The translations under genes were made by a program, and so were the position numbers. A stretch of 10,111 nt of DNA from Candidatus Dormiibacterota bacterium (GTDB lineage Bacteria; Chloroflexota; Dormibacteria; UBA8260; Bog-877). Positions within the stretch are counted from its first letter, which is position 1. Each line of letters opens with the position of its first letter. This document shows positions 3,622-9,519 of this stretch, piece by piece. The stretch spans positions 1-10,111 of the forward strand of contig PLTL01000072.1 in the NCBI GenBank assembly GCA_003164475.1. The letters are read 5' to 3'. A model generated the notes under the pieces. That model saw only the letters and a program-made list of their open reading frames with translations. It was not told the DNA's origin and did not search any database.

Positions 3622-4869
3622 ATGCATCGTTTCGAGGCGACGGACCCGTCGATCGACCTCATGCCGGTGGCCGCGGCACAGGAACGCCTGCTTGAGCTGG
3701 TTTCGCGGCGAGTTACGGCGGAGGAGCTCGTACCTATTGATCGGGGGCGGGGCCGCGTGCTGTCGCGAGCCGTGACGAGCGCGTGGGCTCTCCCAGGCTG
3801 TGACAACTCGGAGATGGACGGTTTTGCGATCCTGACGACCGACTGCACCTCGGCGTCGCCGGCAACTCCCGTGCGACTTCCTGTCACCGGGGAGACCAAG
3901 GCCGGGGCGGTGGTGGGAATGCACGTCCCCGGTACGGCGATCGCGATCACCACCGGGGCAGCGGTACCCCTCGGCGCCGACGCCATCGTTCCGATCGAGG
4001 ACACCCGACAGGACGGCGAGGTCTACGTGCTCCTGCTCGCGGCGCCTCGTCCTGGTCAGTACATCCGACGGACGGGGGAGGATGTCGAATCGGGGCAGGC
4101 GATGCTCCCAGCGGGCCGCCGGCTGCGTCCGGTCGACATCGCGGCCTCAGCAGCCGTGGGAGCTTCGTCTCTATGGGTTCGACGGCGGCCCCGGGTTGCG
4201 GTCCTATCGGGAGGCGACGAACTGGTCCACGTGGGCGCAATCCCAGCGCCGCACCAAGTCACGGATAGCAACGCAGCGATGCTCGCTGCGGCCGTCAGCG
4301 AGGCGGGTGGTGAGGTGATCGACCTCGGCATCGTCGGGGACTCTCCTGATGCTCTGCGAGCGCGGCTGCTTGCCGCCAGCGGGTGTGATCTGATCGTCAC
4401 CAGCGGGGGGGTCAGCGTTGGCCGACACGACTACGTTCGGCAGGTGGTCGCCGAGCTGGGTACCATCGAGACATGGCGGGTGGCGATGCGTCCTGGCAAA
4501 CCAGTTCTCATCGGCAAGGTCGGCGACACGCCCCTGCTCGGATTGCCGGGGAACCCGAGCAGCAGCGCGGTGACGTTCGAGCTCTTCGGGAGGCCGGCGC
4601 TGCTTGCGCTCCAGGGTGCCACGCGGGTCCATCGCCGCCGTATCGCCTTCCGCCTTGGGGAGGACGTTGATACCCCGGTGGCATTGGAGACCTACCTGCG
4701 CGTCCGCCTCGCAGACGCCACCGACGGGATCCCGGTCGCAACCCTGAGTGGTGGCCAGAGATCATCCATGCTGCGGTCCCTCACCGACGCCGACGCCCTG
4801 CTCGTCGTCCCCGCCGGCACGTCGCGGGTTCCCGCAGGATCCGTGCTCGCCGGTTTTGAGCTCGAGTAG
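3622..4869 (+). CDS. moeA: Molybdopterin molybdotransferase MoeA
   Basis: A 415-residue enzyme, normal length for MoeA. It inserts molybdate into adenylylated molybdopterin in the last common step of Moco synthesis, in the cytoplasm. Family motifs appear in order: PGCDNSEMDGFAI (58-70), TGAAVPLGADAIVPIEDT (111-128), RRTGEDV (149-155), the LSGGDEL turn (195-201), the MPT-binding TSGGVSVGRHDY (260-271), RPGKP (290-294) and LPGNPSSS (308-315). A C-terminal beta domain ends at FELE. I chose the ATG at 3622 because homology begins soon after it (PVAAAQERLLELV). The frame continues upstream to 3475, but that part is Pro/Ser/Arg-rich and unlike MoeA. No Shine-Dalgarno sequence is visible and a TAGAGT box is 8 nt upstream. 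The gene is first of three on this strand, with 28 nt to the next start. Confidence 0.95.
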   Translation: MHRFEATDPSIDLMPVAAAQERLLELVSRRVTAEELVPIDRGRGRVLSRAVTSAWALPGCDNSEMDGFAILTTDCTSASPATPVRLPVTGETKAGAVVGMHVPGTAIAITTGAAVPLGADAIVPIEDTRQDGEVYVLLLAAPRPGQYIRRTGEDVESGQAMLPAGRRLRPVDIAASAAVGASSLWVRRRPRVAVLSGGDELVHVGAIPAPHQVTDSNAAMLAAAVSEAGGEVIDLGIVGDSPDALRARLLAASGCDLIVTSGGVSVGRHDYVRQVVAELGTIETWRVAMRPGKPVLIGKVGDTPLLGLPGNPSSSAVTFELFGRPALLALQGATRVHRRRIAFRLGEDVDTPVALETYLRVRLADATDGIPVATLSGGQRSSMLRSLTDADALLVVPAGTSRVPAGSVLAGFELE

Positions 4870-4897
4870 CCCGGTGGAGAGGAATCCGGAGGGTCCC

Positions 4898-6160
4898 GTG
4901 CACGTGGTCTGCTTCGGCTGGGTGCGAGAGCGCCTCGGAGCTGAGATCCTGGTCCGGGAAAGAGCGGCCACGGTCCTCGACCTCTGGTCGATCATCACGC
5001 GTGACCGGTCTGACCTCGGGGATCCGCGCGGGCGAGTGAGGGCGGCGCGCAACTTGGTGTACTGCGACTGGGAGACGCAGATCGAGCCCGGCGACGAGGT
5101 GGCGTTCATGCCTCCGGTGGCAGGTGGGTCGGTGGACGATGCGGCGGGGCGCCGGGTCCGCACGGCACTGGTGACCGATCCCATCGACGTTGGGCGCCTC
5201 ATGGACGAGACGCGTGGCGATGGCGACGGCGCTATCGCAGCCTTCGTCGGTGCGGTTCGCAACAGAAATCAGGATCGCTCAGTGCACAAGCTCGACTACG
5301 AGGCGTACCTGCCCATGGCCGAGCGAGAGCTGTTCCGCATTGCCGCCAACGTCACCGAGCGTCACGGCCTCAGCGCTCTCGCCATGGTCCACCGCATCGG
5401 CTCGCTGGCGGTTGGCGAGGTGAGCGTGGCGGTGGTTGCGGTGGCACCGCATCGACAAGCGGCGTTGGTGGCCTGCTCGGAGGCGGTGGAGGCCCTCAAG
5501 CGCGACCTGCCGGTATGGAAGCGCGAGCATCATGCTGACGGGGCGTTCTGGGTGGACGCCCGTGAGCCTGACACCGGTAGGAATCCCGACGGCGACGCGT
5601 CGACTGACGAGCGGGAGACCCGCCTCGGAGAGGCAACGACCGGCACGGATCCTCTGGAGCGCGATGCGAGAGCTGTGATCGATGCCTCTCGCCTCTCTCA
5701 CCTGGACCAGTCGGGCACCTTCCGCATGGTTGACGTCAGCGACAGGCCGTCCACGCTCCGTGCCGCCGTGGCCGAGGCGCTGGTGCGGTTCAGAAACCCT
5801 GCGACTCTGGCCCTCCTCCGAGAGGGATCGCCCAAGGGCGATGTGCTCGCAGCCGCGCGTCTCGCGGGGATCATGGGCGCCAAGCACACCCCCGAACTCA
5901 TCCCGCTCTGCCATCCGCTTCCGCTCACCCACCTGGACGTGAACGTGGAGGTCCAGGATTCCCCACCCGGCGTCCACATTGTGAGCTCGGCTCGCTGCGC
6001 CGCATCGACAGGTGTGGAGATGGAGGCCCTGACCGCCGCGGCCGTCGCAGGCCTCACCGTGGTCGACATGTTGAAGTCGGCAGACCCGTGGGTGACGATC
6101 GAGTCGGTGCGACTGCTCCGCAAGAGTGGGGGTCGCAGCGGAGACGTTCAACGGCCATGA
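4898..6160 (+). CDS. MoaD-MoaE-MoaC fusion: molybdopterin synthase small and large subunits plus cyclic pyranopterin monophosphate synthase
   Basis: One continuous 420-residue frame carries three Moco enzymes. Residues 1-77 are MoaD, the ubiquitin-like sulfur carrier, ending EPGDEVAFMPPVAGG with Gly-Gly at 76-77. Residues about 85-222 are MoaE, the catalytic subunit of molybdopterin synthase, with GAVRNRNQ (118-125), MVHRIGSL (163-170) and LPVWKREHH (204-212) including the catalytic-type Lys208. A charged linker (about 223-262) leads to MoaC (263-420), which makes cPMP from the MoaA product: KGDVLAAARLAGI (313-325), LIPLCHPLPL (334-343), GVEMEALTAA (372-381), VDMLK (389-393, with the catalytic Asp/Lys pair) and KSGGRSGD (409-416). 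All motifs look intact, so every domain may be active. The GTG at 4898 follows GGAGGG (4888-4893). An ATG far upstream in the same frame (4748) lies inside moeA and is unlikely. MoaD must expose its C-terminal Gly to be thiocarboxylated, so cleavage after Gly77 is inferred, as is known for mycobacterial MoaX (a MoaD-MoaE fusion). Confidence 0.92.
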   Translation: MHVVCFGWVRERLGAEILVRERAATVLDLWSIITRDRSDLGDPRGRVRAARNLVYCDWETQIEPGDEVAFMPPVAGGSVDDAAGRRVRTALVTDPIDVGRLMDETRGDGDGAIAAFVGAVRNRNQDRSVHKLDYEAYLPMAERELFRIAANVTERHGLSALAMVHRIGSLAVGEVSVAVVAVAPHRQAALVACSEAVEALKRDLPVWKREHHADGAFWVDAREPDTGRNPDGDASTDERETRLGEATTGTDPLERDARAVIDASRLSHLDQSGTFRMVDVSDRPSTLRAAVAEALVRFRNPATLALLREGSPKGDVLAAARLAGIMGAKHTPELIPLCHPLPLTHLDVNVEVQDSPPGVHIVSSARCAASTGVEMEALTAAAVAGLTVVDMLKSADPWVTIESVRLLRKSGGRSGDVQRP

Positions 6161-6249: not shown

Positions 6250-6744
6250 GTGGAGCAAAGGTGGCTGGCCGCGGTCATCACCGTGAGCGACAGCCGGGCG
6301 CGACACGACACTGAGAACGATCCGAGCGGTGACGCGATCGTCGCACGGCTCCGCGAGCTGCCTGCCGACATCATCGACCGCCAGCTGGTGGCTGACGTTG
6401 TCGATGACATCCGAGCGTCACTCCGCAGGGCCCTCACGCACGCGCAGTTGGTCGTGCTGAGCGGCGGCACCGGTCTGGGACCCCGGGACGTCACTCCCCA
6501 GGCCGTCTCGCCTCTCCTGGACTACGAGATCCCCGGCATGAGCGAGGTGATGAGGCGAGAGGGGGTTCGCAGCACACCTCACGCCGTGCTCTCGCGACAG
6601 GTGGCAGGGGTCAGCCAGGGACGACTGGTGATCGCCCTCCCGGGCAGTCCCCGTGCCGTTCGCGAATGCCTTGAGGCGATCTGGGAAGCCCTGCCCCACG
6701 CCCTGCGACTGCTGGCCGGTGAGACCGCCCATGGCGGTGGCTGA
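6250..6744 (+). CDS. moaB: Molybdopterin adenylyltransferase, MoaB/Mog family
   Basis: A 164-residue protein of the MoaB/MogA fold, which adenylylates molybdopterin before MoeA inserts the metal. The fold begins AAVITVSDSRARHDTENDPSG (from residue 7). The MPT-binding loop is SGGTGLGPRDVTPQA (about 71-85), and LVIALPGSPRAVRECL appears near the C-terminus. All are typical of the family. The MoaB versus Mog name is not decided by sequence alone. The GTG at 6250 is the first start after an in-frame TAG at 6241-6243, so a longer form is excluded. No good ribosome binding site is seen. Instead a short hairpin (GCCGG at 6236-6240, CCGGC at 6244-6248) sits just before the start and could limit translation. 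The gene is 89 nt after the MoaDEC frame and probably in the same operon. Confidence 0.92.
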   Translation: MEQRWLAAVITVSDSRARHDTENDPSGDAIVARLRELPADIIDRQLVADVVDDIRASLRRALTHAQLVVLSGGTGLGPRDVTPQAVSPLLDYEIPGMSEVMRREGVRSTPHAVLSRQVAGVSQGRLVIALPGSPRAVRECLEAIWEALPHALRLLAGETAHGGG

Positions 6745-6839: not shown

Positions 6840-7931
6840 TCATCCGCCGATGTAGGACATCTCGATGCGCTGGATGGGCTCCGTCCGGGTCGCTCTCGTC
6901 TCCGAGTAGCGGTCGCTGCGATGCTCCCAGCGGGAGCTGACCAGGCGGCGGATCTCCTCGTCGCCGGCGCCGTCCCGGAGCGGCCCTCGAAGATCCAGCC
7001 CGGAAGCCGCGAAGAGGCACGTGTACAGATGCCCGTCCGAACCGAGGCGGGCCCGGGTGCAGTCTCCGCAGAAGGGCCGGCTCACCGACGCGATGACACC
7101 CACCTCCCCGCGTCCGTCGGCGAACCGGTAGCGCCGGGCCACGGCATTCGGCTCGCGAACCTCCTCGAGCAACGGGTGATATCCACTCACCACGTCGAGG
7201 ATCTCCTCGGCGGTGACCACGCTCTCGCGGCGCCAGCCGTTGGACGATCCCACGTCCATGAACTCGATGAATCGCAGGATCAGCCCCTCGGAGCGGGCGA
7301 AATCGACCAGGCCGAGGATGCTGCCCTCATTGACCCCTCGCCGCACCATGCAGTTGAGCTTGATGGGATCGAGACCGGCTTCCCGAGCGGCGGTGATCCC
7401 GTCGAGCACCTTGGCAAGCTCCACCCGCGAGTCGCTCATGGCGGCGAAGGTGGCGGGATCGAGGGAATCGAGACTGACGGTTAGCCGGCGGAGTCCGGCC
7501 CGCGCCAGCCGGCCGGCCAGCTGAGCGAGCAGGGCACCATTGGTGGTCAGGGCCAGGTCGGGGATGCCAAGATCGTGCAGCTGGGTCACAATGTCGACGA
7601 GGTCGCGGCGGAGCAGCGGCTCGCCGCCGGTGAGACGGATCTTGGTCACCCCCAGGGAGACGAAGATGGCGGCGAGGCGGACGATCTCGTCCGCGCCGAG
7701 CAGCTCGCTGTCGGCACGGAACGGGTAGCCGGGCCTGTAGTGCTCACGGGGCATGCAGTATGGGCAGCGGAAGTTGCAGCGATCGGTGACCGAGATGCGC
7801 AGGTCGCGGAGCGGCCTGCCCAGAAGATCGTCAACCACGGCGACGTGTGGGCGGTCAGCCCGCCGAAGCACGCCGGCCCGATCGGTCGGGGCGCGACGCG
7901 CGGCGGCCGCGGTGCTCTTCGTTGGGCTCAC
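6840..7931 (-). CDS. moaA: GTP 3',8-cyclase MoaA (radical SAM)
   Basis: A 363-residue radical SAM enzyme that converts GTP to 3',8-cyclo-7,8-dihydro-GTP, the first step of Moco synthesis; MoaC of the fusion protein takes the product on. The N-terminal [4Fe-4S] motif is CNFRCPYC (Cys52, Cys56, Cys59). TGGEPLLRRD (101-110) follows as the SAM-binding region. The second cluster motif is FCGDC plus a later Cys (288, 291, 305; CX2CX13C), within the MoaA-specific segment SRPFCGDCTRARLGSDG. The chain ends MSYIGG, keeping the C-terminal Gly-Gly needed for MoaA activity. The GTG at 7931 is the first usable start after an in-frame TGA at 7962-7964. The roughly 40-residue extension before the core is normal for actinobacterial MoaA. 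The gene converges on moaB rather than joining the plus-strand operon. Confidence 0.96.
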   Translation of the reverse strand: MSPTKSTAAAARRAPTDRAGVLRRADRPHVAVVDDLLGRPLRDLRISVTDRCNFRCPYCMPREHYRPGYPFRADSELLGADEIVRLAAIFVSLGVTKIRLTGGEPLLRRDLVDIVTQLHDLGIPDLALTTNGALLAQLAGRLARAGLRRLTVSLDSLDPATFAAMSDSRVELAKVLDGITAAREAGLDPIKLNCMVRRGVNEGSILGLVDFARSEGLILRFIEFMDVGSSNGWRRESVVTAEEILDVVSGYHPLLEEVREPNAVARRYRFADGRGEVGVIASVSRPFCGDCTRARLGSDGHLYTCLFAASGLDLRGPLRDGAGDEEIRRLVSSRWEHRSDRYSETRATRTEPIQRIEMSYIGG

Positions 7932-8071: not shown

Positions 8072-8875
8072 CTAGCTGGGATCTCCGAGGAGAGCTGCCG
8101 GCTGCGTCCGGCTCGCCTCCCCGGAGCCGGAGTGCGCGTTGGCAGTCTCGGTGACCCGGATCATCCGGTGGAGCAGCTCGAGGGCGGAGCGCTGAAGTGC
8201 GGCGACCGTCGGCCGGAGCGTCTCGCCGCGCATGGCGGCGGCCCAGGCTGCATCCGCGGTGGCGGCCCGGGCAGCCCCCATGGCGTCCCGGTTCACGCCG
8301 ACGGCCGCGATCCCGCCGGCAACCCCGGCGACTGCCCTGGCGGCGACCTCGCCGGCAGCCCTGGTCGCTTCGGCGGCGGCGGTTGCCGCCTCCGCCGACT
8401 CACCTGCGGCCACCTCGACGGCAGCCCGGGCAGCTTCGGCCCTGGCTTGTGCCCGCTCCAGCGAGTCCTGCGCGGCCAGCGCCGACGCCCTCCCGACGAT
8501 CGGAGCGGTGGCCTCCACCGCGCCGGCTTCGGCGATCAGCCCCGCGGAGCGCAGCCACGCCGGCAGCGACACCCGACAGTACCAGTCCAGGGCTTTCCAG
8601 GAGCGCTCGGTCTCCTGGTCGGACGTGCCTCGCGTGCCGACAATGCGGCCGAGGTACGGGCTCAGCATCTGGCGGCTCTCATCGTCGAAGTCGTCATTGA
8701 GGATGCGAACGAACTCGCCGATCGCCAGGCTGGCGCACTGCGGATGATCCGAGTGTTTCTCATGGGCCATCCAGGCGACGAGCTCCATCGCGCAGACACC
8801 CTCCTCGAAGGTCTCGTGCGTCCCCTGCTGCAGCTGGATGGTCTCGGGCGGCCGGCGAAGCGGTTCACTGATCAT
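8072..8875 (-). CDS. Ala-rich protein of unknown function
   Basis: A 267-residue predicted cytoplasmic protein with no signal peptide or membrane segment. The N-terminal part (about 15-115) has a distinctive pattern: GTHETFEEGVCAMELVAWMA (18-37), HSDHPQC (41-47), then a WYCRVSLPAWLRSAGL segment (98-113). I have a general impression of this arrangement in uncharacterised actinobacterial and phage proteins, but can name no function. Residues 128-215 are a long Ala-rich stretch (AAxxA spacing with Glu and Arg), likely helical or coiled coil, ending near ETLRPTVAALQRSALELLHR (218-237), which is again non-repetitive. The ATG at 8875 has GAGGA about 9 nt upstream. The gene is 140 nt upstream of moaA on the same strand, too far for tight coupling. 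A role in molybdenum metabolism is not supported by its sequence. Confidence 0.7.
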   Translation of the reverse strand: MISEPLRRPPETIQLQQGTHETFEEGVCAMELVAWMAHEKHSDHPQCASLAIGEFVRILNDDFDDESRQMLSPYLGRIVGTRGTSDQETERSWKALDWYCRVSLPAWLRSAGLIAEAGAVEATAPIVGRASALAAQDSLERAQARAEAARAAVEVAAGESAEAATAAAEATRAAGEVAARAVAGVAGGIAAVGVNRDAMGAARAATADAAWAAAMRGETLRPTVAALQRSALELLHRMIRVTETANAHSGSGEASRTQPAALLGDPS

Positions 8876-9119: not shown

Positions 9120-9132
9120 TCGGCAGGCGATT

Positions 9133-9519
9133 ATGGATAAAGACTTCACGCTAGGCGAGGCGGCGCGGACGATCGGGGTCAGCGTGGACACCCTGCGCCG
9201 CTGGGATCGCGCTGGGAAGCTGCGCACCCACCGCGATGAGGACAATCGGCGCATGGTCCCCGCCGCGGAGGTTCGCCGCCTCAGGGCGGTCCCGGAGCGC
9301 CACCGCACGGGGGCGCGGCTTTCCGCTCGCAACCGAATGTTGGGCCGGGTGCTCTCCATCGAGTCCGATGGGGTGATGGCTCTGATCGAGATCGAGGCCG
9401 GTCCCTTCCTGCTCACGGCGGCGGTCACCCGCGACTCGGTCGAGGACCTCGAGCTTCAGGTGGGCGACGAGGTGGTCGCGTGCGTGAAGGCCACCTCGAT
9501 GATGGTCGAGAAGCGCTGA
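9133..9519 (+). CDS. HTH-Mop (TOBE) molybdate-binding transcriptional regulator
   Basis: A 128-residue two-domain protein. Residues 5-50 are a MerR/excisionase-type helix-turn-helix: TLGEAARTIGVSVDTLRRWD (6-25), with RAGKLRTHRDEDNRRMVPAAEV completing the wing and helix. Residues 62-126 are a single Mop/TOBE domain starting LSARNRMLGRV (63-73), with GVMALIEIEAGP (80-91) and ending VKATSMMVEKR. Mop domains bind molybdate or tungstate, so the protein probably senses oxyanion and controls nearby genes, with the solute-binding gene downstream and moaA as likely targets. I chose the ATG at 9133 because homology starts directly after it and an AGGCG lies just upstream; the ATG at 9115 would add six residues. 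The gene diverges from the Ala-rich gene, with about 257 nt between them. Confidence 0.85.
   Translation: MDKDFTLGEAARTIGVSVDTLRRWDRAGKLRTHRDEDNRRMVPAAEVRRLRAVPERHRTGARLSARNRMLGRVLSIESDGVMALIEIEAGPFLLTAAVTRDSVEDLELQVGDEVVACVKATSMMVEKR

Follow-up and report, generated by a model that had tools for sequence, protein, structure and literature searches.

A MoaD-MoaE-MoaC chain of molybdenum cofactor synthesis encoded by one gene in two bacterial phyla, and its probable processing

In most bacteria MoaD, MoaE and MoaC, which serve in building the molybdenum cofactor (Moco), are separate proteins. The stretch of DNA analysed here, 10,111 nucleotides from contig PLTL01000072.1 of Candidatus Dormiibacterota bacterium (the window), contains a frame in which all three follow each other on one chain (order D-E-C). 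This raises the question of whether such a chain is a real gene product, from what it arose, and how three enzymes on one polypeptide could work.

The fusion gene (4898..6160, forward strand; basis translation, Pfam and homologs) starts with GTG, and its translation gives 420 residues and a single stop, at the end. On this protein Pfam (hmmscan) places ThiS/MoaD at residues 5-77 (5.3e-11), MoaE at 92-202 (6.4e-33) and MoaC at 277-412 (6.5e-47). The MoaD (ThiS family) domain, based on Pfam, is 4898..5128 (+; residues 1-77) and ends with Gly76-Gly77 (5123-5128). The MoaE domain, based on Pfam, structure alignment and fold match, covers 5141..5563 (+; residues about 82-222) and includes K201 (5498-5500) and K208 (5519-5521), and the MoaC domain, for which NCBIfam adds to the same three lines of evidence, is 5687..6157 (+; residues 264-420) and includes K313, H339, D390 and K393. 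The tether between E and C (5573..5689, +; residues 226-264) has a pLDDT under 50 and evolves fast. The true start may be either of two GTG codons, because there is a second one in frame at 4874, which would add eight residues and give 428, and such an extension is annotated in several close homologs (five have 428 aa); a GGAGGG is found four bases 5' of 4898.

An open frame by itself carries little weight in this DNA, because other long frames overlap the fusion, including one of 302 aa on the opposite strand. What has to be explained is one frame that matches three known domains, for each of which dN/dS in comparisons with four relatives is well below 1 (D 0.22-0.43, E 0.17-0.39, C 0.15-0.24; the relatives had been picked for an intact fusion). 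This is not chance. From these codon comparisons we conclude that purifying selection acts on each domain of the fusion. The D-E linker (14 codons) gives 0.42-1.18 and the E-C tether 0.37-0.69, the latter at 18-29% identity and with synonymous change above 1 per site. A protein 99% identical to the fusion (P0002) is encoded on a separate, shorter contig (3272 bases). The three-domain MoaD-MoaE-MoaC fusion in one chain is real.

The MoaC domain passes the NCBIfam and Pfam cut-offs (TIGR00581, 168.1 with cut-off 141.5; NF006870, 188.1 with 162; PF01967, 159.4 with 27). MoaE scores above PF02391 (113.8 vs 23.4) and below PRK10678 (85.5 vs 175), and MoaD above PF02597 (43.3 vs 22.5) and below the NCBIfam moaD model TIGR01682 (42.7 vs 66.15). 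Counted along the alignment with 4pyd, K51, H77, D128 and K131 of E. coli MoaC are K313, H339, D390 and K393 of the fusion. For MoaE, K119, K126 and R39 become K201, K208 and R121, a mapping made from the matched ranges only, since residues 23-144 of 1fm0_E and 105-226 of the query are paired without a net gap. The catalytic residues of the E. coli enzymes are K51, H77, D128 and K131 in MoaC and K119 and K126 in MoaE. The MoaD tail reads PPVAGG-S, so that its Gly-Gly, G76-G77, is internal to the chain.

The same positions are kept in other D-E-C proteins. Gly-Gly precedes E in all of the 173 collected (172 by pattern, P0004 by eye) and is followed by A or S in 151 of them (112 A and 38 S, plus the S of P0004). 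The MoaC patterns KG[DSE], PL[CA]H and DMxK are found in 172, 171 and 169 of the 173, and the MoaE pattern PxWKxE in 170, or 169 when the upstream K is included. In an alignment of 38 chosen D-E-C proteins G76, G77, K208, K313, H339, D390 and K393 are invariant and K201 is conserved at 90% or more; when E-C proteins are added (78 rows), D390, G76 and G77 stay at 90% or more. Judged by these alignments, the fusion has kept the catalytic residues that were checked as well as the Gly-Gly of MoaD, and the original prediction of D-E-C in one frame with intact motifs is borne out by translation, Pfam order and residue alignment. The D-E-C proteins of the Actinomycetota type lack about six residues of a MoaE loop just after R121 that the window's group has.

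An AlphaFold2 monomer model has confident domains, a pLDDT under 50 at residues 75-82 and 226-264, and a pTM of 0.42; because of this pTM and the low-confidence linkers the model does not give the relative arrangement of the domains. With Foldseek it matches MoaC and MoaE folds, among them Deinococcus MoaE (8hlg) and the MoaE-like domain of MoaX (9jbd). MoaD structures are absent from the 50 Foldseek matches listed and from the 27 sequence matches to PDB structures.

The original prediction knew of no described D-E-C arrangement. In sequence databases it is common. The 120 matches listed from a first protein search are 87 D-E-C, 22 C-E, 9 E-C and 2 D-E proteins, some of the E-C and D-E entries being perhaps partial sequences. 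With a second search, which is biased to D-E-C because its seed was a D-E-C protein, the pooled set holds 173 D-E-C among 206 proteins (window included, 85 new from the second search). Names on the records, where shown, are MoaC, MoaE-MoaD fusion, MoaC/molybdopterin converting factor subunit 1 and the like. Other domain partners occur as well: several MoaC-MoaE fusions (P0045, P0056, P0060 and others) also carry a nitrate-reductase-associated domain (PF09655), and precomputed Pfam matches of P0269-P0272, P0268 and P0267 indicate fusions of ThiF-rhodanese with MoaE, MoeA with MoaC, and PF00218 with MoaC.

A close relative of the window's protein (P0011) is from a Chloroflexi bacterium and a member of a second group (P0204) from a Solirubrobacterales bacterium; the phylum of the genomes discussed here was read from the named loci that served as centres (L078, L015) and from a small number of proteins with names. 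Across a sample of 400 Chloroflexota genomes no match at E <= 1e-50 spans all three domains, and the fusion is seen only on searching at the level of the order. In the 50 genomes of the order of the window's relatives, six have the fusion, intact in four (G412, G413, G416, G420) and interrupted in two (G414, locus L101; G415, locus L102), and at least nine have D-E and C adjoining in different frames. The break in G415 lies between residues 236 and 290, which is the tether and the start of C. The genomes of G414 and G415 are fragmented, and sequencing error and decay of the D-E-C gene are not separable there. A pattern scan of contigs found D-E-C in one frame in none of the 80 loci listed; it is uninformative on distribution because its patterns were for MoaC only. 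Via Actinomycetota, at least five of 399 genomes in the class of G721 have the three domains in one frame (G721, G906, G1001, G1053 and G1173), the fusion in G1173 running off its contig and its MoaC lying in two pieces at contig ends.

In G1001 and G1053 the chain is longer still, D-E-C being followed by a MoCF_biosynth domain (Actinomycetota genes at L140:1477-3438 and L147:1480-3198, both +). A search with one such four-domain protein gave 67 proteins, 31 of which have all four domains in precomputed Pfam; 33 of the 66 examined have the order D-E-C-B, where B is the MoaB/MogA domain, with Gly-Gly in 33 of 33. Two D-E-C-B records bear no MAG mark, Patulibacter sp. SYSU D01012, whose MoaC domain is that of G1001 (zero branch lengths), and Patulibacter brassicae (class Thermoleophilia, order Solirubrobacterales). 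From their names we presume that these Patulibacter strains are in culture.

Separate moa genes elsewhere in the genome would, according to the original prediction, count against the fusion; a check in relatives speaks for the fusion as regards MoaC and MoaE. Family searches of ten genomes found one MoaE in each and one MoaC in each except G414, which has two. The fusion is the only MoaC and the only MoaE found in G412, G413, G416 and G420 (Chloroflexota; incompleteness is possible), and the only MoaC found in G721, G906, G1001 and G1053 (Actinomycetota). For MoaD the answer is less clear: other ThiS-family genes are present in 10 of the 10 genomes tested, so the fusion is not the sole MoaD candidate.

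The fusion lies among other Moco genes. Directly upstream is moeA (3622..4869, +; ORF, Pfam and synteny), which ends 28 bases before it, and directly downstream, as a separate gene, a mogA/moaB-like gene with a MoCF_biosynth domain (6250..6744, +; Pfam and synteny). The gene for the GTP 3',8-cyclase, moaA, is convergent (6840..7931, -; Pfam, NCBIfam and synteny), and further on is a gene for a MerR-type helix-turn-helix with a TOBE/Mop domain (9127..9519, +; same basis), whose product is, from its domains, a probable molybdate-responsive regulator. The order moeA, D-E-C, mogA, moaA on the other strand and merR-TOBE is common to G412, where mogA was matched in two pieces, G413 and G416; G415 has the same order with its interrupted fusion. 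The window also contains an alanine-rich frame of 267 aa (8072-8875, -) that matches nothing in Pfam or NCBIfam at E <= 0.001 and, near the Moco genes, a PAS-GGDEF-EAL protein with a long N-terminal part (318-2621, -).

The unfused relatives suggest how the chain came about. In both phyla there are relatives with a D-E fusion and a separate moaC in which the D-E stop and the moaC start overlap, in most cases by four bases. Among 29 unfused relatives (31 rows minus one duplicate locus and the interrupted G415, starts being listed mechanically) a moaC start codon is found at -1 from the D-E stop, an ATGA or GTGA overlap, in 19 and within 30 bases before it in 26. The three remaining relatives have their nearest start past the stop, at +2, +3 or +61. 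In 28 of the 29, D-E ends with TGA. The origin would then be a MoaX-type D-E fusion with an overlapping moaC, where loss of the overlapping stop let moaC be read in frame. The tether of L097 contains an ATGA that might have been left over from the old overlap, but this idea was dropped because the ATGA is out of the right frame.

In a 110-row tree of MoaC domains the D-E-C label needs 7 changes, at least 6 of them forced by well-supported branches, and on a second tree (106 rows, four-domain proteins as their own label) 10 changes, at least 8 forced; part of these changes may reflect loss of the fusion, or a copy that is interrupted, as in G415. A single origin, with all D-E-C in one clade, is rejected on the 110-row tree (p-AU 1.5e-47), and the second tree agrees. 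The window's clade is nested in a Chloroflexota group of D-E/C relatives on the 106-row tree. On the evidence of these trees the D-E-C fusion arose several times, in two bacterial phyla.

How could the chain work? MoaD acts via a thiocarboxylate on its C-terminal glycine, and a MoaD inside a chain needs release because the thiocarboxylate forms there. The reading that we favour, and hold to be somewhat probable, is that the chain is cut once, giving free MoaD and a lasting, tethered MoaE-MoaC, and that it originated through the lost overlapping stop. The cut and the protease behind it, a lasting E-C and the stoichiometry given below are our inferences. By analogy with MoaX and the MoaD-MoaE of Deinococcus the chain of 420-428 residues would be cut once, after Gly76-Gly77. 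The released MoaD, with its C-terminal Gly-Gly, would be thiocarboxylated by a MoeB/MoeZ-type adenylyltransferase. MoaE-MoaC would be left as one bifunctional protein, in which MoaC produces cPMP and MoaE converts it to molybdopterin together with the released MoaD. The original prediction argued from the different oligomeric states that the assembly must be cleaved or adopt a new architecture. This argument is weaker than it was put. The D-E junction alone needs a cut on chemical grounds; at the other junction E and C could keep their own oligomeric states, because the tether that joins them is predicted to be disordered, and on the structure model such a tether would let each domain keep its usual oligomer. 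The symmetry of the MoaC hexamer is D3, and three MoaE dimers would fit on its twofold axes, which would give equal numbers of all three.

The predicted cleavage point, Gly77/Ser78 (5126..5131, +), is placed by comparison with Gly82/Ser83 of MoaX and lies in the stretch 75-82 where the pLDDT is under 50. Cleavage of MoaX between Gly82 and Ser83 has been demonstrated and is required for activity (PMC4326299), and a JAMM protease cuts the Deinococcus MoaD-MoaE (PMC8832034). By the same comparison the cutting enzyme would most likely be a JAMM/MPN+ metalloprotease, as for the MoaX-type MoaD-MoaE fusions. Of the 50 genomes of the order 45 have a JAMM gene (44 over the cut-off), including the four with an intact fusion. 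Across these 50 genomes no link of JAMM with the fusion was found, JAMM being present whether or not D and E are fused. In G416 the neighbours of a JAMM-type gene (L193) are a cysteine-synthase-like and a der-like GTPase gene (names by eye), and from this neighbourhood JAMM may serve CysO chemistry instead. JAMM is a candidate protease and no more, because it is as common without the fusion and because of the cysteine-synthase-like gene near it in G416. Of 11 genomes tested, 10 have a ThiF-family gene above the cut-off, the exception being G416, perhaps through incompleteness; the protein of G413 has an N-terminal rhodanese-like stretch (by eye).

The reading that comes closest to the favoured one takes the fusion as a co-expression device, cut at both D-E and E-C to give three ordinary proteins. 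The E-C tether would be easy to cut, because it is long, modelled with low confidence and weakly conserved, and the frame break of G415 falls in or near it. Furthermore the fusions recur where D-E and moaC overlap, as neutral frame changes would give, and frameshifts in syntenic blocks have been suggested for MoaC fusions (PMC11237513). However, no cut motif is evident by eye in the tether of the 38-row alignment, and in eight genomes from two phyla no MoaC was found outside the fusion, which fits a working joined form without proving it. We consider a double cut unlikely.

It might also be that the chain stays uncut with D idle, and that a separate ThiS/MoaD-like protein gives sulfur to MoaE. 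In view of the other ThiS-family genes, found in every one of the ten genomes tested, the D domain might be dispensable, and the MoaE freed from MoaX is able to function with a different MoaD (PMC4326299). An idle D is hard to reconcile with a Gly-Gly that no D-E-C protein of the 173 has lost and with the dN/dS of D (0.22-0.43). In addition, the uncleaved G81A variant of MoaX is inactive, although its authors allow for a direct effect of the mutation (PMC4326299). We hold an idle domain to be quite improbable.

Still less can be said for a MoaC that is also made alone from an internal start codon. L097, L098 and L099 have an ATG eight residues ahead of the MoaC LSH motif, but the scan gives these ATGs no purine-rich match, and the window has at that position only a nearby GTG, at residue 260. 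In L099 a start codon at residue 219, the end of MoaE, does have a purine-rich match upstream; no such match is flagged in the window, L097, L098 or L100. With one flagged start among the window and its four close relatives a separate MoaC is very unlikely. An assembly artefact or pseudogene, to which the fragmentation of most related genomes and the interrupted copies in G414 and G415 might point, is essentially refuted by the independent contigs, the four genomes with intact copies, the purifying selection and the same three-domain order inside the four-domain proteins of the two named Patulibacter records that bear no MAG mark.

The single cut with a lasting MoaE-MoaC can be carried further. 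After the cut E-C might be a standing assembly, perhaps three MoaE dimers round a MoaC hexamer with six MoaD, which hands cPMP straight to molybdopterin synthase; the lineages would converge repeatedly on this assembly, and the four-domain proteins of the Patulibacter type would extend it to the adenylylation step, which would put most of the pathway after MoaA on one polypeptide. We regard this extended version as doubtful. The original prediction had gone in the same direction and suggested channelling of an unstable intermediate, and for this we find no support in anything measured here. cPMP is the more stable intermediate of the Moco pathway, and the argument is weakened because the most labile one falls between MoaA and MoaC. 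Channelling of cPMP between MoaC and MoaE is thus a possible, unsupported addition.

The fusion is like MoaX of Mycobacterium and the MoaD-MoaE protein DR2607 of Deinococcus in having MoaD followed by MoaE with Gly-Gly at the junction (Gly77-Ser78 here, Gly82-Ser83 in MoaX). It differs from both by the added MoaC, none being reported in those, and the cleavage is experimental there and predicted here. In the bifunctional MoaC/MoaB proteins (NF002947) MoaC is likewise on a longer chain with another enzyme of the pathway, but their partner is MoaB, downstream of MoaC, whereas mogA of the window is a separate gene; the fusion scores 162.6 with this model against a cut-off of 285, the MoaC half alone matching. 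The MoaC-MoaE and MoaE-MoaC fusions (a fusion of MoaC with MoaE is reported in PMC11237513) also join the cPMP synthase to the large subunit of MPT synthase, but without MoaD on the chain. The D-E-C-MoaB/MogA proteins of Solirubrobacterales, Patulibacter included, have the same D-E-C order and Gly-Gly and add a fourth domain, MoCF_biosynth. Fusions of MoaD with MoaE, and of MoaC with either MoaE or MoaB, have already been published (PMC1779556, PMC11237513). A description of D-E-C or D-E-C-B was not found in the literature searched, most subscription papers lying outside its reach; as far as this goes, the architecture is undescribed although present in the databases.

Proteins of this kind are natural chains that combine cPMP synthase and molybdopterin synthase, and in eight genomes checked they hold the sole MoaC found. 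With both enzymes on one chain, a direct test becomes possible, in Patulibacter strains too, of whether successive Moco enzymes form a single working assembly. The proteins also enlarge the group of MoaD fusions expected to need proteolytic release, and a 4-base gene overlap appears to have been turned repeatedly into a fusion.
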